From positions 1-64,000 of the forward strand of contig NZ_FSRT01000002.1 of assembly GCF_900143015.1 (NCBI RefSeq): a stretch of DNA of 64,000 bases, read 5' to 3'. The position numbers were made by a program, and so were the translations under genes. The DNA comes from Fibrobacter sp. UWB11. GTDB taxonomy: Bacteria; Fibrobacterota; Fibrobacteria; Fibrobacterales; Fibrobacteraceae. Shown here piece by piece: positions 20,889 through 54,017 of this stretch; position 1 is the stretch's first letter, and the number at the start of each line of letters is the position of its first letter. The notes beneath the pieces were generated by a model, which was not told the DNA's origin, searched no databases, and saw only the letters and a program-made list of their open reading frames with translations.

Positions 20889-21758
20889 TTACATTTTTGA
20901 CAGTGCAAGAAGCGCTCCGCCGCATAAAATCACAGAAACGGCAATCGCAAGCTTGATTCGTTCCGGTTTTGTCGGATATTCACCGAAAACGACCACGCCC
21001 CAAAGCAAGTTCACCAAAAGGTTCAACTGCGTCAGCGGATAGCCCACGGCATACCCCAAGGAGCCCTTCGTGTCGATAGCCCAGAAGCAGCCATGCTGCC
21101 CGACAACCCACAAAATGCCCATGAGCATGGAAGAAATCGAAGGAGCCAAGCCATATTCAAAAAGGGCACGGCGCTTTATACACAAAATTGCAACCAAAAG
21201 TTCTGCGGCTACGAAAATACCTATAGAGAACGAGCTCATGAACTCGAGTATAGGAACTTCGGCAAACTTGTACGGTATGAGGTAAAGACCAAAAATGAGA
21301 CCGCCCAAAAGAGAACGCCAATTTCTAAAAATATTCCCCTGCGGAGGAGCAAGCCTACTCAAACCAAAAAGCAACAGAAGAATTGCCGGAATTGAAAAGT
21401 AAAGTAACGTCGATTCCGAGAAAACAAGCACGCCACTTATAAATGAAGCAAGAATGCTCACGCCCATCGAGCGCACACCGGCACCTGTCAAGTCCTGTTC
21501 GGCCTTTACGGCCCAAAAGCAGAACGCCCCCGCACATACCCAGAAGAACCCGCAAAGGAGGCCCACCGGCAAAACACACAGCGTGTCCGTTGCAATCGAA
21601 ATGGCAAGTTGGCCAAGGAACATACCCAAAGCCATGCAAGAGAGGTACGCCCAAGACGAGAACTTGGACCAAGCCTTGAGAGGGACCATGTAAGTGCCGA
21701 ACGCAAATACGGCTAAAACGAGACCAACGTAACTATTTCCCAATGCAGAACCCCGCAA
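20889..21758 (-). CDS. Inner-membrane transporter of the GRP/RhaT-like (DMT superfamily) type
   Basis: The 289-aa protein has about ten hydrophobic helices in two halves, as in the glucose/ribose porter and EamA branches of the drug/metabolite transporter superfamily. Segments such as YMVPLKAWSKF, FGLYLIPYKFAEVP, WVVGQHGCFWAID and YAVGYPLTQLNLLVNLLWGV fit glucose/ribose uptake proteins. The substrate is probably a sugar but cannot be read from the sequence. The first 26 bp overlap the 3' end of mnmE, so it is translated from the mnmE transcript. Confidence 0.8.
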   Translation of the reverse strand: MRGSALGNSYVGLVLAVFAFGTYMVPLKAWSKFSSWAYLSCMALGMFLGQLAISIATDTLCVLPVGLLCGFFWVCAGAFCFWAVKAEQDLTGAGVRSMGVSILASFISGVLVFSESTLLYFSIPAILLLLFGLSRLAPPQGNIFRNWRSLLGGLIFGLYLIPYKFAEVPILEFMSSFSIGIFVAAELLVAILCIKRRALFEYGLAPSISSMLMGILWVVGQHGCFWAIDTKGSLGYAVGYPLTQLNLLVNLLWGVVVFGEYPTKPERIKLAIAVSVILCGGALLALSKM

Positions 21759-23112
21759 ATATTTTTTGTAAAACGTCTTCGGACGAAATTTCGCCCGTTA
21801 TACTTTGGAGAGACCGGCGCACCAGTTGCATTTCAAACGCAATAAGTTCCACCGCCGGATTCGTACGAATAAGAGAAAGCGTACGGTCGATGCCCGCGAG
21901 AGCATCTTCGAGGCAGTTCTTTTCGCGCTCGCTCGTAATCCAGAGGTCTTCGGAATTTTCCATTTTCTTGAAAAGAGCGGCATTCATCTTTTGGCGAAGT
22001 TCCGCGAGACCATCGCCCGTTTTCGAGGAAATGTGAAGGTTTCCGTCCTGCTGAGATGCGCGCAAGTCCGATTTCGAAATGACGACAAGGTCCGGTTGGA
22101 TTGCTTCCGCCACGCTCTGCTCGCGGCAGGCTCCACTATCGTTCCTCGCAATGACGTTGTTTCCATCCACGACAAGAATCTTCATGTCAGCTTCAGCGAG
22201 GATTTCCTTGCTCTTTTCCATACTGAGCGCATCGAGCGCATCAGAAGCCTTGTCCGCGATACCCGCGGTATCAATCAAGCGGATTTCACCGCCATCCAAG
22301 AACAGGCGAACTTCAACAAAATCACGGGTCGTGCCCGGAATATCGCTCACCAAAATTCGATCTTCGCCAAGAAGTGCGTTTACAAGGCTCGATTTGCCCG
22401 CATTCGGAGCGCCGTACAAAACAGCAAGCGGCAAACGGCTCACATTGGCTTTTTCCTTGAAGCTTTTCAATATAGATTGCACACTTTCGCGAATCGCTTC
22501 AATCTTTGTGCCCCAAGTTGAGTAATCCGGGTCGGCCTCTTCTTCGGCAAAATCAACATCAAGTTCGAGACGCGCCGAAATGTCCATGACCTGTTCCGTG
22601 AGCGTCTTGACCTTTTTCGAGAGCGCACCGCCGAGCAAACGATGGGCATTCTTAAGCTCATCACGATTTGCACTATGGATCACATCCGCGACAGATTCTG
22701 CTTGCACCAAGTCCATGCGACCATTCAAAAACGCACGGCGCGTATATTCACCGGGTTCCGCAAGACGCACGCATTCAACACTCTTGATGACCTGAATCAG
22801 TTCGCGAACGATAATCGGGTTTCCGTGCGGATAAAGTTCCAGCACGTCTTCGCCAGTATAGGAATTTGGACCTTCGAAAAAGATGTACAGGAGGCTATCG
22901 ATAACCTGGGCCGTTTTCCGGTCGCCATTCACGATAGTTCGGTAATCCCTTGCCGTTGCAAGTCTCGCTTCGCGAGCCTTTAAATTTTTTATCGCAGATT
23001 CGCCAAACAATAACCGAATTACATCACGCACTTTGGAACCGCTTACGCGGATTGCGGCAACGGCACTCACGCCGGCCGGCGTCATCGGGGCAACAATCGT
23101 TTGAGAATCCAT
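21733..23112 (-). CDS. mnmE: tRNA uridine-5-carboxymethylaminomethyl modification GTPase
   Basis: With MnmG, this GTPase installs (carboxymethyl)aminomethyl groups at U34 of tRNAs. The 459 aa hold an N-terminal tetrahydrofolate-binding domain, a helical domain, and an inserted G domain with P-loop GAPNAGKSS (about 228-236), DTAG and SKSD. It ends in the family's FCIGK motif with the catalytic cysteine. A TATCTT box lies 7 nt before the ATG and there is no Shine-Dalgarno. Heptamer repeats lie immediately upstream. Confidence 0.96.
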   Translation of the reverse strand: MDSQTIVAPMTPAGVSAVAAIRVSGSKVRDVIRLLFGESAIKNLKAREARLATARDYRTIVNGDRKTAQVIDSLLYIFFEGPNSYTGEDVLELYPHGNPIIVRELIQVIKSVECVRLAEPGEYTRRAFLNGRMDLVQAESVADVIHSANRDELKNAHRLLGGALSKKVKTLTEQVMDISARLELDVDFAEEEADPDYSTWGTKIEAIRESVQSILKSFKEKANVSRLPLAVLYGAPNAGKSSLVNALLGEDRILVSDIPGTTRDFVEVRLFLDGGEIRLIDTAGIADKASDALDALSMEKSKEILAEADMKILVVDGNNVIARNDSGACREQSVAEAIQPDLVVISKSDLRASQQDGNLHISSKTGDGLAELRQKMNAALFKKMENSEDLWITSEREKNCLEDALAGIDRTLSLIRTNPAVELIAFEMQLVRRSLQSITGEISSEDVLQKIFAGFCIGK

Positions 23113-23119
23113 GAAGAAA

Positions 23120-23125
23120 AAGATA
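23120..23125 (-). promoter_or_regulatory. TATCTT -10-like box of mnmE
   Basis: Minus-strand TATCTT 7 nt before the mnmE ATG. The same arrangement precedes icd, coaBC and (11 nt) cmk, implying a very short 5' leader. Confidence 0.4.
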
Positions 23126-23286
23126 GTAATTAGCAGTTAGTCATTGGTCATTAGTCTTTGGTCGTTAGATAATAATCGCTCCCTCACCCACATTCTTTCG
23201 TCTCTCGTCTGTAGCGAGCCTGCGAGCGGTCTCTCATCTAATTACTAAATTCTCTAACAACTAATAACTATTAACTAGCAACTACG
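23126..23286. repeat. Heptamer-type repeat with long imperfect inverted arms
   Basis: The left arm (about 23126-23175) runs TTAGTCA TTGGTCA TTAGTCT TTGGTCG TTAG. The right arm (about 23236-23286) reads ACTAATAACTATTAACTAGC, roughly the inverse complement. The core carries CGTCTCTCGTCTGTAGCGAG. It fills the divergent gap between mnmE and the epimerase gene. Confidence 0.6.
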
Positions 23287-45503: not shown

Positions 45504-45538
45504 ACTGGATCATTCGCTTCGCTCAGGATGACGAAGCA
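45504..45538. repeat. REP-like repeat, GCTTCGCTC subtype
   Basis: CTGGATCATTCGCTTCGCTC followed by AGGATGACG. The same subtype occurs inside coaBC at 53167-53210. Confidence 0.6.
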
Positions 45539-52395: not shown

Positions 52396-53748
52396 CTAAA
52401 CGTTCTTTAACTTATCTAGGCTAAAATCTACAATTTCTTGCGCCAAATCGATTTTTGAGCCCATCTTCATCTCGGGAATTTCAACCTCGGTAGCGTTACA
52501 AGAGTCACCGGAATCCTGTACATTGCGAGAATCGCCGGGAACATTACAAGAGTCACCGGGAACTGCCGCGCGAATCAAAGTATAACGGACTTCATCAAAA
52601 CCGAAACCGCTGTTCGCTGCGACAGGGGCATTGAGGAGGAGCGCATCGGCGCCGCTCTTCTTGAGCTTTTCTGCCGCATGTTCCTTGAAGTGGTCCGTTT
52701 CTAGCGCAAAACCGACTATCACTTGATCTGCACGCTTTTGCGCGACGCTATCGCGCAAGATGTTCGGATTCGGCTCGAGTTCCAAGACGAGCTGGCTACG
52801 GCTATCCTTGATTTTTTCGGTAGCGGCAACCTTCGGACGGTAATCGGCCACGGCAGCACAATGCACGAGCACATCGGCATTTTTCATCTGTTCGAGAACG
52901 GCCTTGTGCATGTCGCAAGCGCTCTTGATTTTTGTCACGTGGACAGCACCTGGAAATTCGGCTTCCATCGGGCCCGCGACAACGCTCACGTTAAAGCCAT
53001 TTGCAAGGAACGTCGCAGCGATTGCAACAGCAGTCTTTCCGCTGCTGCGGTTGCTAATATAACGCACGGGGTCAATCGCTTCTTCGGTGCGGCCAGCCGT
53101 AATGAGAACCTTCTTGCCGTAACCGGGAAGCGTCGGATCCACTTCATTTTCAGCAGGAAGAGTTTGAAGATCCTTCGACTTCGCGCGCGGCGCTTCGCTC
53201 AGGATGACACTACTAGCTTCTAAATAAGCGACAATTTCAGCGGGGTCGAGGAGACGGCCTTTGCCGACTTCGCCACAGGCAAGTTCGCCCGCAGGGCTGT
53301 CCATCACGAACGTATTTTCAAAACTACGAAGCGTTTCAAGATTGCGCTTGACCGCCGGAGAATTGAACATCGCGACATTCATCGCAGGGGCGATAAAACG
53401 CGGGCCCGTGCAGCTCATAAAGCAGAGGCTCACAGGGTCATCGGCAATGCCATAGACGAACTTTCCGATGACATTTGCGGTCGCCGGAACGACGAGATAA
53501 AGGTCGGCCCAACGCGGGAAATCGATATGCTGGAAAGGACGCGCTTCGACGGCGCCATTTTTCAGGTAAACCGGGCACTTGGATAGGCTAGCAAACGTAA
53601 GCGGGGCCACGAACTGTGTAGCGGCTTCGGTCATGCAGACGCGCACTTCGGCGCCTTTCTTTTGCAACAGGCGCAAAAGTTCACAAGACTTGTAGGCGGC
53701 AATTCCGCCCGAGACTCCAAGAAGAATTTTCTTTCCAGCGAGATTCAT
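52396..53748 (-). CDS. coaBC: Bifunctional phosphopantothenoylcysteine decarboxylase/phosphopantothenate-cysteine ligase
   Basis: Two consecutive coenzyme A steps. The CoaC half has GGIAAYKSCELLR, PAMNVAM and ACGEVGKGR (active-site Cys). The CoaB half has ITAGRTEEAIDPVRYISNRSSGK in order and NPNILRD. The 450-aa protein has two odd inserts. The interdomain linker (about residues 180-195) is the translation of a REP-like repeat, and near the C-terminus three GDS(C/R)N units break the sequence between YTLIRAA and the closing MGSKIDLAQEI. A TATCTT box lies 7 nt before the ATG. Confidence 0.94.
   Translation of the reverse strand: MNLAGKKILLGVSGGIAAYKSCELLRLLQKKGAEVRVCMTEAATQFVAPLTFASLSKCPVYLKNGAVEARPFQHIDFPRWADLYLVVPATANVIGKFVYGIADDPVSLCFMSCTGPRFIAPAMNVAMFNSPAVKRNLETLRSFENTFVMDSPAGELACGEVGKGRLLDPAEIVAYLEASSVILSEAPRAKSKDLQTLPAENEVDPTLPGYGKKVLITAGRTEEAIDPVRYISNRSSGKTAVAIAATFLANGFNVSVVAGPMEAEFPGAVHVTKIKSACDMHKAVLEQMKNADVLVHCAAVADYRPKVAATEKIKDSRSQLVLELEPNPNILRDSVAQKRADQVIVGFALETDHFKEHAAEKLKKSGADALLLNAPVAANSGFGFDEVRYTLIRAAVPGDSCNVPGDSRNVQDSGDSCNATEVEIPEMKMGSKIDLAQEIVDFSLDKLKNV
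52495..52564 (-). repeat. Triplicated 21/27-nt repeat inside coaBC
   Basis: Three copies of a TTACAAGAGTCACCGG-like unit (plus strand), starting at about 52495, 52522 and 52543, encode PGDSCN, PGDSRN and SGDSCN. It lies in a variable region near the CoaB C-terminus. Confidence 0.65.
53167..53210. repeat. REP-like repeat inside the coaBC linker
   Basis: AGATCCTTCGACTTCGCGCG through GCGCTTCGCTCAGGATGACA, the GCTTCGCTC subtype. Read on the minus strand it encodes VILSEAPRAKSKDLQ in frame. Confidence 0.75.
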
Positions 53749-53778
53749 GAAGTGCAAGATAGAAAAATAAAGAGAAAT

Positions 53779-53813
53779 AGCTTAGTTCATAGTCATTGGT
53801 CAATAGTCATTAG
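53779..53813. repeat. Heptamer-type repeat upstream of coaBC
   Basis: TAGTTCATAGTCATTGGTCA followed by ATAGTCATTAGAG, in the coaBC promoter region. Confidence 0.55.
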
Positions 53814-53913
53814 AGATTTCCGTGATTCGAGCTGTGCAAGGAGTCCCCCAGCACTAAGGGATTCTTCTTTATGTCATGCCCGCGAAAGCACGCACCTCCA
53901 TCTTGTATCGAAA

Positions 53914-53946
53914 GGAGATTCCCGGTCGGAGCCGGGAATGACATGC
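53914..53946. repeat. REP-like repeat
   Basis: GAGATTCCCGGTCGGAGCCG, GGAATGACATGC; nearly identical to the copy at 13931. The rest of the 269-bp gap (53749-54017) holds no gene that I can see. Confidence 0.65.
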
Positions 53947-54017
53947 AATGGTATCAAGCGAGAGGTCTCTTGTGATCTCACATCATGCTCCGTTAGGGGA
54001 ACGACAAATTAACAAGG

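Follow-up and report, generated by a model that had tools for sequence, protein, structure and literature searches.

The coaBC gene of Fibrobacter sp. UWB11 carries, in frame within the linker that joins its CoaC and CoaB domains, a 39-bp palindromic repeat (F1) of the form TCATCCTGAGCGnAG-[variable hairpin]-CGnAGTCGAAGGATC, and in related species the same linker holds short repeats of several families. We consider it probable that short repeats enter genes and are kept there only if they are in frame and fall in permissive linkers, whose contents turn over; the F1 copy in coaBC would most likely be such a spacer, harmless and not a new part with a purpose of its own. CoaBC is an essential enzyme. 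The features discussed are collected in Table 1; the window is the whole stretch of DNA analysed, 64,000 nucleotides of the UWB11 genome.

Table 1. Coordinates of coaBC, its parts and the repeats discussed in the text.
Feature	Position	Strand	Basis or remark
coaBC ORF, bifunctional phosphopantothenoylcysteine decarboxylase / phosphopantothenate-cysteine ligase	52396..53748	minus	ATG at 53748
coaBC alternative start, TTG	53757	minus	453-codon ORF then 52396-53757
CoaC (flavoprotein) domain	53230..53733	minus	Pfam PF02441, residues 9-176 (453-codon reading)
CoaB (DFP) domain	52573..53118	minus	Pfam PF04127, residues 214-395 (453-codon reading)
CoaC-CoaB linker, 40 codons, hypervariable within the genus	53110..53229	minus	comparison of genus CoaBC
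F1 palindromic repeat in coaBC, whole element TCATCCTGAGCGAAGCGCCGCGCGCGAAGTCGAAGGATC	53169..53207	minus	codons 53164-53208 read as VILSEAPRAKSKDLQ, residues 181-195
Tandem repeat of 21 bp (GDSCNVP-like), the second in-frame insert, close to the C-terminal end of CoaB	52520..52563	minus	
Short, imperfect intergenic F1-like copy	about 45508..45534	minus	sequence reading
MnmE gene	21739..23136	minus	
MnmE G-domain loop	22096..22161	minus	TCATTGCGAG-family word read as VIARNDSGACREQSV

The window protein scores 370.7 bits against the NCBIfam equivalog TIGR00521 (cut-off 219.7), with the F1 insert inside the match, and Pfam recognizes both the CoaC and the CoaB domain in it. An earlier note on this DNA had placed an in-frame repeat at 53167-53210, between the two domains. 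The repeat is real and does lie between the Pfam borders, its codons falling a few bases away from that position. The second insert of the protein, near the C-terminus, was considered as another REP or F1 element and rejected, as it is a 21-bp tandem repeat; it is missing or shorter among relatives. The C-terminal end of CoaB is also seen to vary in length between close relatives.

F1 belongs to a family that is dispersed through the genome and the genus. Within the window, the 18-mer GCTTCGCTCAGGATGACA occurs exactly at 53192-53209 and with one mismatch at 45516-45533, a pair of matches that was reached in none of 100 shuffles of the window, and only one 13-mer word has at least three copies in the 64 kb taken alone. 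Across the 3.76-Mb UWB11 genome, a loose F1 pattern (TCATCCTGAGCGN{8,38}GAAGGATC) finds 28 copies of 35-49 bp and its reversed form finds none. A tighter pattern is present in 39 of 41 genus genomes and, among 120 sampled genomes from across the phylum, in 48 of 49 within the genus as against 1 of 71 others. The shuffles, the genome-wide counts and the reversed control together led us to reject a chance match as the source of the coaBC repeat. The second copy that had been claimed at 45504-45538 holds up only in part: it is F1-like, with one arm intact and one change in the other, and it is short and imperfect, has no variable hairpin and is not listed by the loose pattern.

When the 28 copies are aligned, the arms are fixed (YGTCATCCTGAGCG and CGAAGGATC) and the middle differs in 27 of 28 copies while still pairing as a hairpin, the inner stem having a mean of 3.7 pairs compared with 2.6 in shuffled sequences (maximum 3.07 in 500). 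Strong folding as RNA was considered for F1 and rejected, since the z score is 0.11 for the copy in CoaBC and lies below -2 in one of the four copies tested. To judge by the look of the genome-wide listing, a second family, F2, also combines fixed arms with a diverse inner stem. REPs are described as short palindromes of 20-40 bp in PMC3733652, and F1, as a dispersed and mostly intergenic palindrome of slightly greater length, is REP-like in this broad sense.

When the copies in UWB11 are placed by a simple test for ORFs, 19 of 28 lie outside them: eight between genes that run in the same direction as F1, three between genes that run against it, six between converging genes and two between diverging ones. 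The remaining nine are within ORFs, six of them in identified genes (coaBC, uvrB, ligA, an aminotransferase, hsdS and an Eco57I-type methylase), so coaBC is not the sole gene in this genome to carry the repeat. Five of these six are oriented with the gene and the ligA copy is against it. As for the other three, one lies in a 93-codon ORF, one in a further ORF, and one is placed, by reading, upstream of the uvrB start. By eye, the aminotransferase has a second repeat-like peptide too. The reversed F1 of LigA (L066:1162-3033) is in frame and read as SSLDPSTPLHSAQDD; it precedes what we take to be the KxDG motif.

To follow the linker through the genus we used the CoaBC proteins found in 72 of 80 genomes (40 of 40 among the better ones) and read 71 of them by BLAST, leaving out a fragment from G096. 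The genus linkers are 34-112 residues long, with a median of 55, whereas those of 20 proteins from other families of the phylum span 15-46 residues, 16 of the 20 having at most 20. The VILSE peptide of the window's linker (L001) occurs in only 4 of the 71 genus proteins, the others being L002, with one change, L035 and L036. No peptide is conserved throughout the 71 linkers, and relatives with similar flanks mostly have different linkers. The term "domesticated", which the earlier note had applied to the repeat, is not supported. In the 20 proteins from the other families, neither the peptide nor a single repeat word occurs; a linker peptide kept in distant CoaBC in the absence of the repeat, which would have spoken against an insert, is thus not seen among these 20.

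The history of the F1 copy is less simple than a single recent insertion. Its presence does vary among the genus CoaBC proteins, whose alignment the earlier note had proposed as a check for recent insertion, but the four VILSE carriers do not form one clean branch in a tree of the CoaBC domains: L037, which has a different linker, groups with L001, L002 and L035, and L036 groups with L089 and L090, some forks of this tree being weakly supported. No empty site for the insert was found among the 71 linkers, the near relatives having other fillings, so that the insertion is not directly witnessed. In L006, a more distant relative, the corresponding position of the linker is taken by another F1 copy, and VIL[NS]-like starts are present at the F1 site in the relatives L003, L004, L038, L089 and L090. 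An older repeat may therefore underlie the copy in UWB11. The F1 copy of L006 and the VIL[NS]-like starts may reflect either shared origin or convergence.

Most of the other linkers contain repeat-like words as well. Among the words read in the linkers are TCATTGCGAG..GAAGCAATC, TCACCCTGAG..GAAGGGTC, TGAGCCTGYCGAA, GACGAnAGACGAnAG, TCATTCCGGC..GCCGGAATC, TCATCCCCGCG..GGGGATC and others, and in L095 there is apparent nesting, where a repeat interrupts a segment that is whole in relatives and a second repeat follows further along. Four linker families are dispersed genome-wide, namely F1, F2, F4 and F5; those beyond these four were recognized by reading the linkers. By count, F2 is present in 72 of 80 genomes (control 0), the TGAGCCTGYCGAA repeat in 70 of 80 (the control matched once in two genomes each) and a GACGAnAG repeat in 68 of 80 (control 0).

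We measured the repeat content of the linkers in two ways. Of the 71 genus linkers, 63 match one or more of a set of 18 word patterns and eight match none. The patterns cover 15.8% of linker DNA, whereas they cover 0.02% of coaBC outside the linker and 0.06% of linkers shuffled by codon, and they are absent from the 20 linkers of other families; this coverage test is partly circular, because the patterns were derived from the linkers themselves. The commonest pattern, GGGGG.CACCCCC and its kin (31 rows), was counted within the linkers. A less circular test took intergenic 11-mers from parts of UWB11 and of a second genome, G004. These match 4.8% of linker positions; the figure is 1.4% for shuffled linkers (at most 1.8%) and 2.1% for coaBC outside the linker. 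Genic 11-mers, taken in equal number, match 3.1% of linker positions and 4.3% of those elsewhere in the gene. When the 13 linkers nearest to the two source genomes are removed, the intergenic 11-mers still cover 3.8%, as against 1.4% in one shuffle. An excess of repeats in the linkers is present, though by the 11-mer test it is modest.

Whether this content is read as protein bears on an artefactual explanation, in which coaC and coaB would be separate genes and the repeats ordinary intergenic DNA that is open by chance; the linkers do have an intergenic look, and we nevertheless hold this to be very improbable, given that the coding frame is open in all 71 linkers, through up to 112 codons, when each of the other five frames is open in 5-20 of 71, that each of the 71 genus loci has a single ORF, and that the full-length CoaBC chain 6tgv aligns over both domains. 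In the same alignment, the insert falls where the 6tgv chain has fewer residues. Being in frame and open, the coaBC copy has, on the evidence of sequence, the apparent character of an RPE-like protein-coding palindrome. The AlphaFold2 model gives pLDDT values below 50 at residues 181-201, which include the insert, and at 397-419, which include the C-terminal tandem insert, and the F1 insert lies within the least confident stretch. Structure prediction had been proposed as a check for a disordered linker, and the low pLDDT agrees with such disorder in the model; the model was built from 19 sequences, its mean pLDDT is 68.8, and the shallow alignment lowers confidence elsewhere too, including stretches in the domains (e.g. 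63-76 and 223-235), so that the low values agree with disorder and do not prove it.

The CoaBC linker is one of several such places. A comparison of 204 kb of the UWB11 genome with 193 kb from G004 yielded 88 aligned orthologue pairs, of which the 69 with at least 80% identity were examined. An internal variable run of at least 10 residues was found in eight of the 69; that of coaBC is the longest, and mnmE and uvrB, both with repeat peptides, are among the eight. In the G domain of MnmE, two loops vary in the manner of the CoaBC linker among the 30 best-matching of 80 genomes, one after KILVVDG and the other between SKSDL and an IS[SA] motif, with repeat-like peptides that differ by species. 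The UvrB linker that precedes the UVR motif varies alike, by eye, among the best 30 of 74 genomes with a UvrB match; in the segment examined it has 78-156 residues and many repeat-like peptides (L072, L190-L219). Both samples of 30, for MnmE (L137-L166) and for UvrB, lean to close relatives. Some UvrB peptides, such as IPAFAGMT, are apparent reversed repeats by peptide reading. Single F1 cases are found in LigA, the aminotransferase and restriction-modification proteins.

We suggest that these observations can be brought together in the following manner. Copies of F1 and of other short dispersed repeats would arise all over the genome, and selection would remove most of those that land inside genes. 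Copies that are in frame and free of stops, and that fall in linkers or loops without a sequence requirement, would persist as spacer; the CoaBC linker, the two G-domain loops of MnmE and the linker of UvrB would be permissive places of this kind. Linkers that need only length and flexibility would keep such copies, and the peptide would require no special function. The fillings would then be replaced over time by new insertion, decay and tandem slippage, and perhaps by recombination or exchange between species. A RAYT-type Y1 transposase was considered as the agent that copies F1 and rejected for the UWB11 genome, where PF01797 has no match; 5 of 14 control genomes are positive. Across the many sequenced species of this gut genus, corresponding positions of conserved enzymes hold different repeats, which allows one to follow, by comparison, where proteins tolerate insertions and how repeat-derived peptides appear and vanish. 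It is also a testable case for the copying of short repeats without a known transposase.

Three sets of observations sit less comfortably with simple neutrality. One is the placing of the four VILSE carriers in the domain tree, described above, and another concerns the identity of whole linkers. The linkers of UWB11 (L001) and G066 (L035) are identical in DNA, within a 131-nt identical run (gene positions 511-641, the linker being 520-639) that extends past the linker borders by 9 nt on one side and 2 nt on the other; the gene's next run measures 59 nt. The coaC and coaB flanks of this pair are 94.8% and 90.8% identical. An identical linker between flanks that differ by 5-9% suggests, as far as these sequences go, either exchange or constraint. 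In the former case, homologous recombination in the conserved coaC and coaB flanks would have carried the linker from one species to another as a cassette, and F1 would have come with a foreign linker instead of being inserted on the spot, an account that we regard as possible though rather unlikely for this gene and that is compatible with our preferred explanation for the first origin of the repeat. It would explain why similar flanks can enclose unlike linkers, as in L001 and L026 (coaC 0.936, coaB 0.902, linker 0.40), and why the ending DPTLPGYGKK is present in L087 and L091 of a sister clade and absent from L026, L037 and L003. However, another identical run of L001 and L035, 134 nt long, lies beyond coaBC within the surrounding 4.1 kb, so that long identical runs are not unique to the linker. 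Between L001 and L002, the linker identity is 0.958 and the linker is not the longest run, and in only 8 of 20 pairs of equal length, picked for similar linkers and flanks, the linker is at least as similar as the flanks. The probability of the L001/L035 run arising by chance is about 0.005 by a rough hand estimate that is uncorrected for the choice of the pair, and no donor was found.

The third set concerns orientation. In the CoaBC linkers, all words of F1 (5 rows), F1b (2), F2 (4), F3 (5), F4 (14), F5 (8), F6 (2) and F7 (5) run with the gene, and in the MnmE loops of 30 genomes so do those of F1 (10), F1b (2), F2 (5) and F4 (5). The only reversed words in the two proteins are two weak, short ones, F12 and F13, in four rows. 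Since the rows share ancestry, they represent fewer independent orientation events than their number. A one-way orientation is not predicted by simple neutrality, and stop codons were rejected as its cause for F1, as the frames of the 28 copies are open in 41 of 84 cases forward and 46 of 84 in reverse. A strict rule is contradicted by the reversed F1 of LigA and the apparent reversed peptides of UvrB. A more ambitious reading would treat the CoaBC, MnmE and UvrB linkers as standing landing sites for many unrelated repeats (four families dispersed genome-wide, more than ten by reading), with fillings renewed between species, with an insertion bias towards gene direction and with whole linkers passed between species. 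We think this unlikely. If true, repeat mobilization would continue without a known transposase, and would amount to a natural insertion screen of essential enzymes.

Orientation also enters into the case for recruitment, in which the repeat would do work in CoaBC as an RNA hairpin or as a peptide, for example in ribosome slowing or domain spacing. The near-uniform direction of the CoaBC and MnmE words, the two weak ones excepted, would fit such a role, as would the identity of the UWB11 and G066 linkers between differing coaC and coaB segments and an inner stem that stays paired while it is ever different. We nonetheless judge recruitment to be improbable: most relatives have other fillings in this position, shuffled versions of the CoaBC copy fold as well as the copy itself, no linker peptide is kept throughout the genus, and in the 20 proteins of other families the short linkers described above suffice. 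Retention as a harmless spacer remains our preferred reading of the coaBC copy.

Palindromic repeats that are read in frame are already known, as shown by the Rickettsia RPEs and by REPs in the work of Di Nocera, De Gregorio and Rocco (2013, PMC3733652). According to a MITE review (PMC10969869), RPEs are in frame in many genes, are about 150 bp long and each code for a conserved peptide. PMC3733652 describes REPs within genes and names flexible linkers as possible neutral sites, counts RPE-4 and RPE-6 as CGTC REPs, reports REP-type inserts in R. conorii uvrB, and notes that the DNA ligase of O. terrae, the organism with the most intragenic GTAG repeats, carries a GTAG REP. The parallel with Rickettsia that the earlier note drew is apt. 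Like the RPEs (Ogata 2000, 2002) as described in PMC10969869 and PMC3733652, the Fibrobacter elements are dispersed palindromes that lie in frame in unrelated conserved genes and are apparently tolerated; unlike them, they are mostly about 25-45 bp long, and the filling of the same linkers varies between species.

It is instructive to compare F1 with the published REP classes, as these are given in PMC3733652. F1 has the end that characterizes CGTC REPs (an unpaired CGTC, TGTC or CCTC, AT as the first stem pairs and a C-C-A-like tail): it starts with TGTC in 25 of 28 copies or CGTC in 3, then AT, and ends with AT and a short C-Y-N tail, which is CCA in 11 of 28 and otherwise CTA, CTC or CTT. 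It resembles them also in being mostly intergenic and sometimes genic, and in that CGTC REPs lack a dedicated transposase according to PMC3733652, and a RAYT-type one was looked for in the UWB11 genome without success. The CGTC REPs have an 8-9-bp stem with a 4-5-base loop, a form that F1 does not share; in F1 the outer stem is 5 bp long, the internal loop is conserved and a separate apical stem varies in nearly every copy. Because the TGTC-AT end is shared and the stem and loop are not, we have not filed F1 in the four published CGTC families. With the GTAG REPs that are accompanied by RAYT, as presented there, F1 shares short palindromes between genes and sometimes in genes, but its end is not GTAG, and PF01797 is absent from the UWB11 genome.

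The main text of PMC3733652 does not mention Fibrobacter, and the open-access literature searched yielded nothing on repetitive extragenic palindromes in this genus. A search of the same literature by title gave no pertinent work on Fibrobacter palindromic or intergenic repeats, on CoaBC-linker repeats or on these repeat words. REP sequences in frame in domain linkers found no match there, and the recurrent refilling of the same enzyme linkers across a genus was likewise not found. Rickettsia offers the best-known examples of palindromic repeats that are read in frame.

Some further features of the repeats and their surroundings were noted. Replication strand was weighed as a candidate cause of the one-way orientation, and the signs are mixed. 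On the strand that carries F1 in the forward direction, the local GC skew is positive at 21 of the 28 copies in UWB11. In the 204-kb stretch of the same genome, six of seven F1 words are on the G-rich strand, and F2 has the opposite lean (six of eight). Finally, two elements akin to pieces of the linkers, a palindrome of the GTCATTCCCGGC type and a tandem of TAGTCAT, lie in the spacer upstream of coaBC (53780-53960).
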